From Psychrobacter coccoides (GTDB lineage: Bacteria > Pseudomonadota > Gammaproteobacteria > Pseudomonadales > Moraxellaceae), in NCBI RefSeq assembly GCF_017498085.1, contig NZ_JAGBKM010000008.1, positions 1 to 64,000 of the forward strand: 64,000 bases of DNA, written 5' to 3'. This document shows positions 16,602 through 23,463 of this stretch, piece after piece. Position 1 is the stretch's first letter, and each line of letters begins with the position of its first letter. Both the position numbers and the translations under genes were made by a program. The notes beneath the pieces are model-generated. The model was not told the origin of the DNA and did no database searches. It was given only the letters and a program-made list of their open reading frames with translations.

Positions 16602-17039
16602 ATGAAACCACCCGCTGACAAAACTTTTAAAAAAAACCGTCGCCCTGCGCGCTCAATCAAAGAGATTAGAAGACGCCAGTTGGGAGAGGCTTATCTGTCG
16701 CCTCTAGATCGTTTGGTCTACGCCCTACTAAGCGGCTTGATGTACGGCTTTGTCGGTTTAGTGATAGATATAGCAATCGTCATTATTCGATCGATATTAG
16801 ATATCGGTCATGGCGAGATGCTATGGTTATTTGCGCCTTTTTTGTTGTTGCTAGGCGCATTAATTGGTCTAATCTTTGGTAAAAATGTGGGTGCAGATAG
16901 TGTCAATGCGTTAAATAGCGACCCTATGGAACACCCTTATATCGATGCTTACACGGTGCGCCATGATATATTTCGTGGTATCGTCATCGGGGTTATCCTC
17001 TTTGGACTGATATGGCTGACGATGTTGCTGGTGATTTGA
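16602..17039 (+). CDS. Small inner-membrane protein of unknown function
   Basis: About 145 residues; an upstream GTG at 16575 would add nine. The N-terminus is strongly basic (KTFKKNRRPARSIKEIRRRQ), followed by three hydrophobic segments at about 40-62, 73-95 and 125-144. The arrangement suggests a cytoplasmic basic tail and three membrane spans. I do not recognise the family. It is divergent from the HAD phosphatase and convergent with the carbonic anhydrase-like gene, with only 24 bases between the two stops. Confidence 0.7.
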   Translation: MKPPADKTFKKNRRPARSIKEIRRRQLGEAYLSPLDRLVYALLSGLMYGFVGLVIDIAIVIIRSILDIGHGEMLWLFAPFLLLLGALIGLIFGKNVGADSVNALNSDPMEHPYIDAYTVRHDIFRGIVIGVILFGLIWLTMLLVI

Positions 17040-17063: not shown

Positions 17064-17600
17064 TTAATCAGGCATAGCGATTTCTTTTAGGCCGCTTTTA
17101 AATTTCTGGCAACGGTCGCTATAATGTAGCGCTGATGCTTTTAGCATTGCTGCTTGCTCATCAGTCAAGGTTTTGACCACTTTGGCCGGTGCGCCCATAA
17201 CCAGTGAGTTGTCAGGTATCTCTTTACCTTCAGTCACCAAAGCCTTAGCACCGATGATACAGTTTTTACCAATTTTGGCGTTATTGAGCACCACAGCGCC
17301 AATACCAATCAAGCTGTTGTCACCGATCTCGCAACCGTGCAGCATCGCCAGATGCCCGATCGTCACATAATTACCGATATTGACTTCAATCCCAGCATCG
17401 GTATGAATGACGCTGTTTTCTTGTACATTACTATAGTCCCCGATATGGATACGCTCGTTATCCCCTCGAATGACCGCACCAAACCAGACACTGGCTTGAT
17501 GACCCAAATACACATCGCCTATCACTCGTGCACTGTCAGCCACCCAGCCGTTGAAAGGTACTGCAAACTCAGGTGCTTTATCCAAATATTGATAAATCAT
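17064..17600 (-). CDS. Gamma-carbonic anhydrase-like hexapeptide-repeat protein (YrdA/PaaY type)
   Basis: Left-handed beta-helix protein of 178 residues, expected to form trimers with a metal held by histidines from neighbouring subunits. Repeated hexapeptides run from about 15 to 150 (for example GDVYLG, IHIGDY, IGIGAV). The metal-binding histidines are in SVIHTD, TIGHLA and LHGCEI. The C-terminal [15 protein letters not shown] is typical. Some family members are thioesterases or have no known activity, so carbonic anhydrase activity is not assured. Confidence 0.88.
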
Positions 17601-17765
17601 AACAACTCCTTGTTCTATTGCTTATTATACGCATATTAGGTTTAATGAACGACACCCATTGTGACAAAGCCAACTGCTAAAATCTAGACGTTTTTAATTG
17701 GCTACCTTTAACGTGCAGTTGTGCGGCTATCAAAAAATCGTCTGGCTATCTGCGTTTATATTGTA

Positions 17766-17771
17766 TATAAT
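17766..17771 (+). promoter_or_regulatory. Candidate -10 element of the carA promoter
   Basis: TATAAT within TTGTATATAATGCGC, about 250 bases upstream of carA and about 18 bases before the 5' arm of the leader hairpin. No good -35 hexamer lies 17 bases upstream, so activator help is possible. Assigned by position and -10 match alone. Confidence 0.45.
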
Positions 17772-17788
17772 GCGCAAAATCTGTGCCT

Positions 17789-17871
17789 AAGCGAGCGGAC
17801 ATGATGCAAGTTACCTATTCACTACCCAGTGGGTTTTGTAGTTTCCATCGATAATGTCTTCTCGCTTTTTT
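17789..17871 (+). terminator. Putative attenuator hairpin in the carA leader
   Basis: The 5' arm (17789-17802, AAGCGAG then GACAT) pairs with the 3' arm (17854-17867, ATGTC then CTCGCTT) with a two-base mismatch between the paired blocks, and six Ts follow. The long loop holds a complete short reading frame whose start codon lies in one arm and stop codon touches the other. A translating ribosome would break the stem. Function is inferred from this geometry. Confidence 0.5.
17801..17854 (+). CDS. Possible carA leader peptide (17 residues)
   Basis: ATG ATG CAA ... CAT CGA TAA encodes MMQVTYSLPSGFCSFHR. It sits inside the leader hairpin of carA. The only arginine codon is the last before the stop, which is notable for an operon that supplies carbamoyl phosphate to arginine and pyrimidine synthesis. 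The ribosome site (GCGGAC) is weak, so translation is uncertain. Confidence 0.4.
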   Translation: MMQVTYSLPSGFCSFHR

Positions 17872-18019
17872 GTGGGCGTTTTTTGCCTTAAGCGCTTGAT
17901 ATAACTGCGTTTGAGGTGACTGAGACTGGGCTGTTTTTATCACGCAATAGTCAGTCTTTATAGGTAAATACCTGTAGCAATCACAGCACAGCACTCACCA
18001 ATAACAGCGGAGGCAACCC

Positions 18020-19267
18020 TTGAATTCATCGGCAAATATACAAGCAATTTTGGCACTAGCAGACGGTACGATCTTTCGCGGTGTGAGTATCGGTAGCCTT
18101 GGCCATCGTGTTGGTGAGGTGGTGTTTAATACAGCCATGACAGGCTACCAAGAGATTCTAACCGACCCAAGTTATGCCCGTCAGCTGGTCACCCTAACTT
18201 ACCCTCATATCGGCAATACTGGTACCAATAGCGAAGACACCGAATCTGGCAACAGCCATAAAATCTGGGCTGAGGGTTTAATCATTCGTGATGCGACCAT
18301 GTGCACGTCCAGTTTCCGTAACGCTGAACCACTCACTGACTATCTAAAACGCCACGATACTGTCGCTATCGCAGAGATTGACACCCGCCAGCTCACTCGT
18401 TTGTTACGAGATAAGGGCAATCAAAACGGTTGTATCATGACTGCTTCAAATGGCGAGACCATTAGCAGCGCAGACGAGCAACAAGCCATTACATTGGCAC
18501 AAGAATTCGCTGGTATCAAAGGTATGGACTTGGCAAAAGAGTGCTGTACACCAACGACATTTGAATGGACTGAGGGCACGTGGGAGCTGTCAGATACCCT
18601 ACTCAACCGTGAGGTCTCTGGTAGTCATGACAGTGACACGGGTGGCTTCTTTAAGCAGCTCGGTACTCATATCGACAAAAAATTCAATGTTGTGGCTTAT
18701 GATTTTGGTGTAAAAACCAACCTACTGCGTTTGTTGGTCGATCGTGGCTGCCATGTCACAGTGGTGCCTGCGCAAACGCCGATTGCAGATGTATTGGCCA
18801 TGAACCCAGACGGTATCTTTTTATCCAATGGCCCTGGCGATCCATCAGCCTGCGACTATGCCATCGATAACGTCCGTCATATCATTGAGCAAACCGACAT
18901 TCCAGCCTTTGGTATTTGCTTAGGGCATCAAATCATTGCCCTTGCTAGTGGCGCAAAAACCTTAAAGATGAAAACCGGTCATCACGGTGCCAACCATCCA
19001 GTACAAGATCTGGACTCTGGTAAAGTCATGATCACCAGTCAAAACCATGGCTTTGCGGTCGACGAGGACTCGCTACCTAAACACATAACATCTACCCATC
19101 GCTCATTATTTGATGGCACCAACCAAGGGCTTGAATTGGCAGATAAACCTGTGTTTAGTTTTCAAGGACACCCTGAAGCCAGCCCAGGGCCACATGAGTC
19201 TGCGGCATTGTTCGATAAGTTTGCAGAAATGATGGCAGCCGCTCAAGCAGAAACCATAGAATCATAA
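18020..19267 (+). CDS. carA: Carbamoyl-phosphate synthase small (glutaminase) subunit
   Basis: Releases ammonia from glutamine and passes it to CarB for carbamoyl phosphate, the precursor of arginine and pyrimidines. The 415 residues comprise an N-terminal CPSase domain (about 8-150, with [15 protein letters not shown]) and a C-terminal class I glutaminase with nucleophile Cys300 in FGICLGHQ and His384/Glu386 in [10 protein letters not shown]. Translation begins at TTG, supported by GGAGG six bases upstream and by alignment with the family N-terminus; no in-frame ATG gives a complete domain. It is somewhat longer than the E. coli protein (382), with a mid-protein extension around 185-210. Confidence 0.95.
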
Positions 19268-19384: not shown

Positions 19385-22300
19385 ATGCCAAAACGTACCG
19401 ACATAAAAAGCATTCTTATCATTGGCGCAGGCCCCATCGTCATCGGCCAAGCATGTGAGTTTGACTACTCAGGCGCGCAGGCGTGTAAAGCGCTAAAAGA
19501 AGAAGGCTACCGTGTCATCTTAGTCAACTCAAACCCTGCGACCATCATGACGGACCCTGTCATGGCCGATGCCACCTATATCGAGCCGATTACTTGGCAG
19601 ACAGTCGAGCAAATCATTGCCAAAGAGCGTCCTGACGCTATTTTGCCGACGATGGGTGGCCAGACGGCGCTGAACTGTGCACTAGATTTGGATAAGCACG
19701 GCATCCTAACCAAATACAACTGCGAGCTGATTGGTGCCACCAAAGACGCAATTGAGATGGCAGAAGACCGTGAGCTGTTTGACCAAGCCATGAAGCGTAT
19801 CGGCCTTGAATGTCCACGTGCCGAAACTGCTGAGACCATGGAAGAAGCTTTTGCCACTCAAGAAAAAATGGGCTATCCCTGCATCATTCGTCCGTCATTT
19901 ACCATGGGCGGCTCAGGCGGCGGTATCGCTTATAACCGTGACGAGTTTATCGAAATCTGTGAACGCGGATTTGACTTATCACCGAATCACCAACTGTTGA
20001 TCGATGAGTCACTTATCGGCTGGAAAGAGTATGAGATGGAAGTGGTGCGTGACAAAAACGACAACTGCATCATCATCTGCGCCATTGAAAACTTCGATCC
20101 CATGGGCGTACACACAGGCGACTCCATCACCGTCGCCCCTGCGCAGACTTTGACCGATAAAGAATATCAAATCATGCGTAACGCATCACTGGCGGTACTG
20201 CGTGAGATTGGCGTCGAAACTGGCGGCTCAAACGTCCAGTTCGGCATCAACCCAGATACGGGCCGCATGGTCGTCATTGAGATGAACCCACGGGTATCAC
20301 GCTCATCAGCATTGGCCTCAAAAGCCACGGGATTCCCGATTGCCAAAATCGCGGCCAAACTGGCGGTTGGTTATACCCTAGATGAATTGCAAAATGACAT
20401 CACAGGTGGCAAAACGCCAGCCAGCTTTGAGCCTGCGCTTGATTACGTGGTTACTAAGATACCAAGATTTAACTTCGAAAAATTCCCGCAAGCAGACAAC
20501 ATCCTATCAACACAGATGAAGTCAGTCGGTGAAGTCATGGCCATCGGCCGTAACTTCCAAGAATCCATGCAAAAAGCGCTACGTGGTATGGAAACAGGCT
20601 CAGACGGCTTTGATGAGCAAATCGACTTTAATGCCATCAAAGACGGCAAGCTTAGCACCGATAAAGCCCGTAGCGAGATTGTCAATCATTTGACTATTCC
20701 AACGCCAGAGCGTATTTATTACGTCGCTGATGCCTTCCGCATCGGTATGAGCGTCGATGACGTCTTTAATTACACCAAAATTGACCCCTGGTTTTTGGTA
20801 CAAATCGAAGATATCGTCAACACCGAGGCTGAGGTCAAAGCCTTAGGCTTTGGCGGTATCACCGAACAAAACCTACGTGGCTTTAAGCGCAAAGGCTTAT
20901 CAGATTTACGTCTGGCCAAACTGCTTGGCGTGTCGCAAAAACAGCTGCGCAAAAAACGTTGGGATCTAGGTGTGTATCCTGTTTATAAGCGTGTCGATAC
21001 CTGTGCGGCAGAGTTTGCCACCAGCACCGCTTATATGTACTCAACCTATGACAGCGAATGCGAAGCCAACCCAACCGACAAGAAAAAAATCATGGTCATC
21101 GGTGGTGGTCCTAACCGTATTGGCCAAGGTATTGAGTTTGACTATTGTTGTGTCCATGCTGCCCTAGCGATGCGTGCAGACGGCTACGAGACCATTATGG
21201 TCAACTGTAATCCTGAGACGGTTTCGACCGATTATGACACCTCAGATCGTCTTTACTTTGAGCCCATCACCCTAGAGGATGTGCTTGAAATCGTCCGTAT
21301 CGAAAACCCGGATGGCGTCATCGTGCAGTTCGGTGGTCAAACCCCACTAAAACTGGCTCGTGCTTTAGAGTCTGCTGGGGTAAAAATCATTGGTACTAGT
21401 CCTGACGCCATTGACCGTGCTGAAGACCGTGAACGTTTCCAACATATGATTCAGCAGCTTGATCTTGTACAGCCGTCCAATGCGCTTGCGACCAGCTTAG
21501 AGGATGGACTGATCAAAGCCAAAGATGTTGGCTACCCGCTAGTCGTTCGCCCCTCTTATGTACTCGGTGGCCGTGCGATGGAAATCGTCTATAACGAAGC
21601 AGAGCTCAAACACTACTTACGCACCGCTGTACAAGCGTCTAATGAAGCACCTGTGCTCCTTGATCGCTTCTTAGACGATGCTGTCGAAGTCGATGTCGAC
21701 TGTGTCTGTGACGGTACTGATGTAGTCATCGGTGGTATCATGCAGCATATCGAGCAAGCTGGCGTTCACTCTGGCGACTCAGCATGCTCACTACCGCCGT
21801 ACTCATTATCAGATGAGCTTTGCGATAAAATGCGTGCGCAAACAGTCGCTATGGCAAAAGAGCTTGGCGTAGTAGGTCTGATGAACGTCCAGTTTGCAGT
21901 CAAAGGCGACACCGTTTATATCCTTGAGGTCAACCCACGTGCCGCTCGTACCGTGCCGTTTGTCTCTAAGTGTATCGGCACGTCGCTGGCACAAGTGGCA
22001 GCACGCTGTATGGCTGGCACGTCATTAAAAGATCAAGGCTTTACTACCGAGATTGTGCCCTCATTTTATGCGGTCAAAGAAGCGGTCTTCCCCTTTGCCA
22101 AATTCCCAGGCGTTGATCCTATCTTGAGCCCTGAGATGAAATCAACGGGCGAGGTAATGGGTGTTGGCAAAACCTTTGGTGAGGCCTTCTATAAAGCCGT
22201 TATCGGTAGTAATGAGCGTCTGCCAGGTCTGCCGACTGCAGGCGAGACCAAAACCGTCTTTATCTCAGTGCGTGATAGCGACAAAGAGCAAGTAGCGCCT

Positions 22301-22663
22301 ATCGCTCGCCAACTCTTAGACTTTGGTTTTGAGATCGTTGCTACTACTGGCACCCAAAAAGTACTGAGTGATAATGGCATCGAGTGCAAACAAATCAACA
22401 AGGTTACTGAAGGTCGCCCACACATCGTTGATGCCTTGAAAAACGGCAAAATCGACCTTATTATCAATACCACTGAAGGCAAACAGGCACAAGAGGATTC
22501 GTTTTCTATCCGTCGTAGTGCCCTGCAAGGCAAGGTGTTTTATGTCACTACCTTAGGTGCAGCGGATGCGGTTTGTAAATCTTATGCCATTGACCTACCG
22601 TTTGATGTGTATAAGTTACAAGATTTGCATCAGCAAGCAAAGGTGGTTGACGCGGCTGAATAA
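19385..22663 (+). CDS. carB: Carbamoyl-phosphate synthase large subunit
   Basis: Synthetase subunit of 1092 residues, slightly longer than the usual 1070-1075. Two homologous ATP-grasp halves: the first (about 1-400) phosphorylates bicarbonate, with [20 protein letters not shown] at the start; the second (about 560-940) phosphorylates carbamate, with [20 protein letters not shown]. An oligomerisation domain lies between them. The C-terminal MGS-like domain (about 945-1080, [30 protein letters not shown]) is the allosteric region binding UMP and ornithine in relatives. It follows carA by 117 bases and is likely in one transcript with it. Confidence 0.97.
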
Positions 22664-22986: not shown

Positions 22987-23463
22987 ATGCAACGTTATCC
23001 CATGACTCCACAAGGACATGCGGCTCTTGAAGCCGAATTAAAGCAACTAAAAACCATCGAACGACCACGTATTACTGCTGCTATCGCTGACGCTCGTGAA
23101 CATGGCGACCTAAAAGAAAACGCCGAGTATCACGCTGCTCGTGAGCAGCAGGGATTCTGTGAGGCTCGTATCCGTGATATTGAAGCCAAGCTTAGCGCCG
23201 CTCAGGTTATTGATCCGTCGACCTTACCAAAAGAAGGGCGTGTGGTATTTGGCGTGACTGTCGTCATCGAAAATATGGACACTGAAGAAGAAACCCGTTA
23301 TCAGATCGTTGGTGATGACGAAGCGGACTTTAAAGTGGGCAAAATTTCAGTCAACTCGCCCATCGCTCGTGGTCTTATCGGTAAATCAGAAGGTGATGAA
23401 GCCCGTATCGAAACACCAAAGGGTGTGGTGGAATATGAGGTAATGGAAGTCATTTACGACTAG
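22987..23463 (+). CDS. greA: Transcription elongation factor GreA
   Basis: Rescues backtracked RNA polymerase by stimulating transcript cleavage through the secondary channel. The 158-residue length is standard. The N-terminal coiled coil (about 1-75) carries the acidic tip in [17 protein letters not shown], with Asp and Glu residues that hold the catalytic Mg2+. The C-terminal FKBP-like domain (about 80-158) includes [17 protein letters not shown]. Preceded by an AAGGA site and followed by a strong terminator, it seems to be transcribed alone or by read-through from carB. Confidence 0.97.

Follow-up and report, generated by a model that had tools for sequence, protein, structure and literature searches.

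The carAB-greA operon of Psychrobacter coccoides is preceded by what its sequence marks as a real attenuator-type element, this lineage's version of the carAB attenuator known from Pseudomonas. It consists of a long imperfect hairpin that runs into a T tract and that carries a start codon in its 5' arm. We regard the chances as about even that this leader terminator is opened by a ribosome that begins or ends translation of the leader frame, with UTP setting the timing, and that it represents the local form of an attenuator found throughout the order. A link to the pyrimidines is likely, by homology with Pseudomonas.

In the window, the whole stretch of 64,000 nucleotides that was analysed, carA lies on the + strand at 18020..19267, with a TTG start and a match of 463.7 bits to TIGR01368 (cut-off 307). 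On the same strand it is followed by carB, encoding the large subunit (19385..22663; TIGR01369, 1556.8 bits), and by greA (22987..23463; NF001264, 261.9 bits), which is the order of the carAB-greA operon of Pseudomonas as given in the accessible portion of PMC4997734. The upstream neighbour (17064-17600) is found on the opposite strand, and the last gene-like frame on the + strand ends at 17039. A -10 hexamer, TATAAT (17766..17771, + strand), is fixed at 19 nt before the GCGAG of the hairpin; among the 90 same-genus leaders the sequence is TATAAT in 83, TACAAT in 5 and a one-off variant in 2. The probable -35 region (17743..17748, + strand), 17 nt before the -10 hexamer, has the form TRGCYN in most relatives and is a weak match to the consensus, with TGGCTA (28 of the 90), TAGCCC (18), TAGCTA (17) and TAGCCA (15) as the variants at this place. 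Going by the position of the -10 hexamer, the transcript would start near 17778, about 10 nt before the hairpin. Its conserved 5' end, CAAAATCTGTGCC (17775..17790, + strand), has AAAATCT just before the hairpin in 86/90 leaders, and the region 17775-17787, despite its position outside the hairpin, hardly varies in the genus. On the other side, a GTG directly after the T tract (17872-17875) is kept in 82/90 genus leaders.

The hairpin itself (17789..17867, + strand), identified from folds, conservation and covariation, begins 17 nt past the conserved TATAAT and ends some 150 nt before carA. At its base AAGCGAG (17789-17795) pairs with CTCGCTT (17861-17867), both on the + strand, and the T6 tract of the intrinsic terminator follows at 17866..17871 (+ strand), with at least six Ts present in 90/90 leaders. 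The outer helix joins 17789-17802 to 17854-17867 with a single C-U mismatch (17796/17860), and the first two Ts of the T6 take part in its pairs. A stem followed by six Ts, as described in an earlier note made from the sequence, was thus confirmed, and so was the spacing of 50 bases between its arms; these 50 nt form further helices instead of an open loop, and the leader is therefore one long hairpin. Folding of the RNA from 17780 to 17880 gave -33.1 kcal/mol, compared with an average of -22.9 for shuffled sequences (z -3.2; a value reached by 2 of 200 shuffles). As for an alternative antiterminator hairpin, the fold left once the 5' arm was blocked was weak (-5.2 kcal/mol). Two overlapping terminator sites were listed at 17861-17878, and the region holds 4 sites versus 2.3 in shuffles. 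No known RNA family was matched: Rfam gave no match in the window above the gathering threshold, and at E up to 5 it gave just mir-14 (17919-17961), outside the hairpin and below the cut-off. A second copy, sought as GCGAG-N(50-80)-CTCGCTTTTT, was not found in the genome, where the motif matched at carA only and a backward-read control also gave one match; a short form of the motif has one further occurrence, at C45.

The leader start codon ATG (17801..17803, + strand) sits in the 5' arm of the hairpin, 5 nt past GCGAG, and is directly followed by a second ATG (17804-17806). It opens a frame of 17 codons, MMQVTYSLPSGFCSFHR (17801..17854, + strand), which ends with TAA (17852-17854) at the foot of the 3' arm. 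The A and the U of the start codon pair with 17855 and 17854, and the stop codon therefore touches the other arm; the earlier note had described the frame, with its start in one arm and its stop touching the other, just as the sequence has it.

Of the 105 genomes in the same-genus set, 100 match the leader as DNA; 90 of these were read, all with carA downstream (90/90), and 10 matching genomes were left unfetched. Four of the five genomes without a DNA match had carA and their leaders were read too, while the fifth, 77% complete, gave no carA at E 1e-40. The hairpin is kept in 94/94 same-genus carA leaders (90/90 fetched and 4/4 without a DNA match), counts that stand for non-independent events, as the genomes are related; the latter four keep hairpin and ATG in an altered sequence. 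A carAB operon kept while the frame and the pairing are both lost, which the earlier note had named as evidence against its proposal, occurs in 0/94 same-genus leaders, and the hairpin is lost in two leaders of another genus of the family (L147 and L152). For the covariation analysis an alignment was used of 64 distinct hairpins, out of 102 from Psychrobacter and two sister genera; it omits two of the 14 sister-genus leaders (L129 and L140), and the four leaders without a DNA match joined only the start-codon set of 68. Across the 64 hairpins there is no variation in GCGAG, ATGA or the T tract. Changes on both sides of a pair were found in 19 cells versus 2.7 in shuffles, and 97.0% of the cells are paired, versus 93.7% in shuffles and 47-68% when the structure was slid. 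The pairs changed on both sides are four in number and all lie in the outer helix, a figure not above that for a one-column slide, which gave five pairs and 12 cells with just 48% of the cells paired.

The start codon behaves differently from the frame that it opens. It lies exactly 5 nt past GCGAG in 68/68 distinct hairpins, in 13 different 5-nt contexts, and at its fixed place in 94/94 same-genus leaders (90/90 and 4/4). Its partners in the fold vary, and in 20/68 the minimum free energy fold leaves one or more of its three bases without a partner. A fixed ATG with changing partners is the behaviour expected of a start codon, unlike that of a mere stem. A strong Shine-Dalgarno sequence was not seen before the leader ATG, only the GAG in GCGAG. 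The leader frame stops 14-17 nt before the T tract in 63/90 leaders, consists of ATGATG and then TAA or TGA (a stop at codon 3) in 15/90, runs beyond the T tract in 8/90 and ends elsewhere in 4/90; it has exactly 17 codons in 55/90. In 21 seventeen-codon frames from distinct hairpins, pN/pS amounts to 0.70 in frame and to 0.80 and 0.62 in the other frames, and a function of the peptide was rejected for want of an in-frame purifying signal. The fixed ATG, the variable frame and a pN/pS similar to that in the other frames therefore point to initiation, and not to the peptide or its arginine, as the signal that could be read. The earlier note had suggested a possible translation-coupled attenuator and had named conservation of frame and stem in relatives as a check. 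Its terminator-like stem and its ATG are indeed conserved (94/94), whereas the frame of 17 codons does not stand as a unit (55/90): its length varies, and 15/90 leaders stop after two codons.

To follow the element beyond the genus, its stem base was sought in a strict form (GCGRG/CYCGC-T6 within 300 bp of carA) in a family set of 40 leaders chosen for spread from 126 matching genomes of other genera, an order set in which 30 of 76 genomes were read, those with the best protein scores, and a named set of 80 of 585 relatives, those among the matches listed. The named loci were placed in the taxa to which we take them to belong. The strict stem base is present in 90/90 genus leaders, 36/40 family leaders and 25/30 order leaders (the best 30 of 76). 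Among the matches listed it is present in 32/34 named Pseudomonadaceae, 16/19 other named members, 4/4 named Acinetobacter, 4/5 unplaced gammaproteobacterial assemblies and 2/18 outgroups. Shuffled sets gave averages of 0.05 to 0.65, with at most 2 per set. The opposite strand also scored in the strict search (10/30, 12/34, 1/40 and 1/19), we think because the A tract before the hairpin makes the motif read both ways. A relaxed search gave 26/30 for the order, 38/40 for the family and 62/80 for the named set, but outgroups matched too and the strict figures are therefore quoted. Two of the strict misses, L139 (a changed base) and L140 (further upstream), do have a hairpin in the relaxed search, and in L147 and L152 it is absent; the other strict misses outside the outgroups are L168, L174, L182, L184, L188, L241, L253, L257, L272, L286 and L289. 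In a hand comparison spanning all 76 order genomes, AGCGAG-N(10-40)-CTCGCTTTTT was found within 250 bp upstream of carA in 33/76; the 76 genomes together have 21 further occurrences elsewhere, one of them (G298) with no full carA for comparison. The stem base occurs before carA across the order, and the element is therefore taken to be old and tied to carA. The predicted terminator hairpin of the carA leader is older than the genus and order-wide, Pseudomonas included.

The ATG has a narrower distribution, being at the same place in 14/14 leaders of the sister genera g7 and g10 and in 0/26 leaders of the family's other genera. For the count outside the family 78 leaders were used, after dropping L273, L285, L300 and L301, which belong to Psychrobacter's own family, and L267, L278, L281, L287, L291 and L299, with doubtful hairpins. 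In these 78 leaders, among the matches listed and many of them from close Pseudomonas relatives and thus non-independent, the stem base is GCGGG in 44 and GCGAG in 27. A frame that opens with ATG and passes through the terminator is present in 38/78 of them, versus 43.3 in shuffles (among the matches listed), and with GTG allowed as well the figures are 59 versus 62.8 in the same 78. With ATG frames not exceeding the shuffled expectation, an order-wide leader frame was rejected.

Among known systems, one of the closest to the element is the carAB leader attenuator of P. aeruginosa and P. stutzeri, described by Kwon et al. 1994 as cited in PMC4997734, of which the accessible portion is the source for all that follows on Pseudomonas experiments. 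For P. syringae, a mapped 3' end lies immediately past the terminator, 45 bp before carA, and the carA fusions go up when the stem-loop is broken or deleted. The full fusion is lowered by uracil and arginine raises fusions, the two together having little effect; qRT-PCR gave no change with arginine plus uracil together. A short RNA, P32, arises at the homologous place in P. syringae and P. aeruginosa; in P. syringae carA RNA is still made without it, and its deletion has little phenotype. In P. aeruginosa the pyrimidine response needs the stem-loop, as reviewed in PMC4997734, where a leader peptide is also given as reported for this species; in the P. syringae leader the authors of that paper, in the portion available, saw no start codon. 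A single promoter and a stem-loop before carA are common to the Pseudomonas attenuator (PMC4997734) and the leader studied here. In Stutzerimonas stutzeri (L228), GCGGG/CCCGC next to T6 forms the same stem base as in Psychrobacter. In P. tremae (L236), which we take to be a close relative of P. syringae, the hairpin's T tract comes to an end 45 bp upstream of carA, at the distance of the mapped P. syringae 3' end, and the two are therefore treated as the same element. The Pseudomonas hairpins examined measure about 28-30 nt, compared to 79 nt here, and in Psychrobacter, unlike Pseudomonas, a start codon lies 5 nt beyond GCGAG and the frame is folded inside the hairpin. P32 is a short RNA that ends at the terminator before carA, as the RNA predicted for the present leader would. 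The carA gene of P. aeruginosa is also under an ArgR site, and in Psychrobacter the check was for the E. coli-type ArgR (PF01316), for which the genome gave no match; the ArgR of Pseudomonas belongs to a family other than the E. coli type.

The pyrBI attenuator of E. coli has a long leader frame that runs through its terminator. The likeness to our proposal is that UTP would be sensed via the speed of RNA polymerase relative to a ribosome on the leader frame; the difference is that the frame goes through the terminator in just 8/90 leaders here and that the start codon itself lies in the stem. By base composition the leader is not specially T-rich (T fraction 0.31, versus 0.33 and 0.27 in the flanks), and so gives no hint of a U-rich pause region of the pyrBI type. 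In the betaproteobacterial genus Polynucleobacter, the carA motif SRC-12-1 is likewise an extended imperfect hairpin before carA; it lies directly before the ribosome-binding site and is a riboswitch candidate according to the accessible portion of PMC8632094. Among the matches listed, titles and opening lines of abstracts gave no literature on the carA leader in Psychrobacter or Acinetobacter. The text of PMC8297930 does not contain carA, and the single match in the accessible portion of PMC2965389 seems to be the name of an author in the reference list.

We infer that the ribosome is the opener and UTP the signal, the latter because of the pyrimidine response of the homologous Pseudomonas stem-loop. 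The carAB-greA transcript would halt at the predicted terminator unless the hairpin is held open. A ribosome starting on the leader ATG would cover the 5' arm and one ending on the 17-codon frame would cover the other arm; either would prevent the terminator from forming and let transcription continue to carA. At an ample supply of UTP, RNA polymerase would arrive at the T tract before a ribosome loads and the RNA would stop at about 95 nt, whereas at short UTP the polymerase would pause, the ribosome would load and carAB would be expressed. The peptide and its codons would carry no signal. In constrained folds with an assumed ribosome footprint of -15 to +14, the base stem has a probability of 0.00 when the P site is at codon 1, 2 or 3 and of 0.01 when it is at codon 17; the terminator is thus blocked at the places where a ribosome is slow, namely at start and stop. 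For a P site at codon 5, 9, 13 or 16 the probability remains 0.86-0.93, and a ribosome in mid-frame would therefore block it only if its bulk counts. In the ATGATG-stop forms start and stop both fall on the 5' arm. In these models the blocking pattern agrees with a switch governed solely by which comes first, the loading of a ribosome or the arrival of RNA polymerase at the T tract. Since leader frames are not in excess outside the family and a start codon was not seen in P. syringae, the old element does not have to rely on translation. It appears possible, though we would put it forward only tentatively, that an order-wide attenuator, unmatched in Rfam, has been turned in one lineage into a switch in which the initiating ribosome is the antiterminator, with the start codon in the 5' arm of the terminator and the slow start and stop on its arms, and with neither a regulatory codon nor an antiterminator hairpin.

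The main rival is a reading in which the old, order-wide element senses pyrimidines without translation, its stem base being recognised by a protein or by RNA polymerase, and in which the ATG of the lineage only tunes the response. The stem base is nearly fixed as a sequence outside the family (GCGGG or GCGAG as counted above), which seems more than pairing needs, the exact motif lies upstream of carA in 33/76 order genomes versus 21 places elsewhere, and leader frames are not in excess outside the family. However, sensing free of translation leaves the invariant ATG of the lineage without explanation, and we consider this reading rather doubtful. It is unlikely that the leader is a fixed-rate brake or a source of small RNA, in which most transcripts are always stopped and the 95-nt RNA may act elsewhere without any sensing: such a role would agree with the P32 RNA from the homologous place in P. 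syringae and P. aeruginosa, but not with the uracil effect on the full P. syringae fusion, the need for the stem-loop in the P. aeruginosa response and the near absence of a phenotype upon P32 deletion in Pseudomonas (accessible portion of PMC4997734).

Two further readings have very little left in their favour. That the hairpin is the terminator of an upstream gene, and not an attenuator, would suit its intrinsic terminator form (sites 17861-17878), but with the upstream neighbour on the other strand, the last + strand frame ending at 17039 and the conserved -10 hexamer lying in between, this is highly improbable, and gene order together with the place of the promoter led to its rejection. 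Attenuation by arginine, on the pattern of the trp/his leaders, with a ribosome stalled at an arginine codon deciding the fold, might be suspected from CGA as the last codon in the window and from the role of carAB in feeding arginine synthesis, and a link to arginine through this codon had been suggested in the earlier note. The last codon is arginine in 8/90 leaders, however, and the glutamine codon CAA in 44/90, any arginine codon is found in the leader frame in 29/90, and 15/90 encode only Met-Met. On these counts from the 90 leaders stalling at an arginine codon was rejected, the suggested link falls with it, and we see next to no chance for this reading. Neither the short peptide nor its arginine codon is conserved, and both are probably of no consequence.

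If opening by the ribosome, the reading that we prefer, is true, a leader with its frame cut to ATGATGTAA would still be responsive. In the literature covered, the pyrimidine link of Pseudomonas-type carAB rests on stem-loop deletions, with the sensor left open. The natural variants on one stem base (no start codon, a start followed by a stop, 17 codons, and a frame through the terminator) make sensing by the ribosome versus a protein or the polymerase directly testable, and the element could join RNA family libraries.

Finally, several other forms of the leader were observed in relatives. In L147 and L152 (genus g15), with an Acinetobacter-like leader, the promoter-like part is kept and the hairpin is gone, so that they represent natural losses. 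The Acinetobacter form (L148-L151, L153 and L154, and the named L273, L285, L300 and L301) has an AAGGAGG-like ribosome site in the hairpin, sometimes followed by ATG or GTG TTT TTT TAA, and, immediately ahead of the 3' arm, a run of T6-T8; it is possible that this form is another design for the same switch, one with a U-rich pause. Neither the ribosome site nor the T run is present in L155 and L156, which come from the same genus as Acinetobacter-form leaders. In A. amyesii and A. indicus (L273 and L285) ATGTAA and ATGTGA, a start and then an immediate stop, lie in the 5' arm and resemble the ATGATG-stop forms of 15/90 genus leaders. In L131, L132 and L158 (genus g9) a GTG frame in the hairpin, accompanied by a ribosome-site-like AAGGAG, runs through the terminator and in frame into carA. 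In the Pseudomonas leaders L222, L228, L234 and L238 a perfect inverted repeat, TTTAGTG-TGTC-CACTAAA, lies near the carA promoter, upstream of the hairpin.
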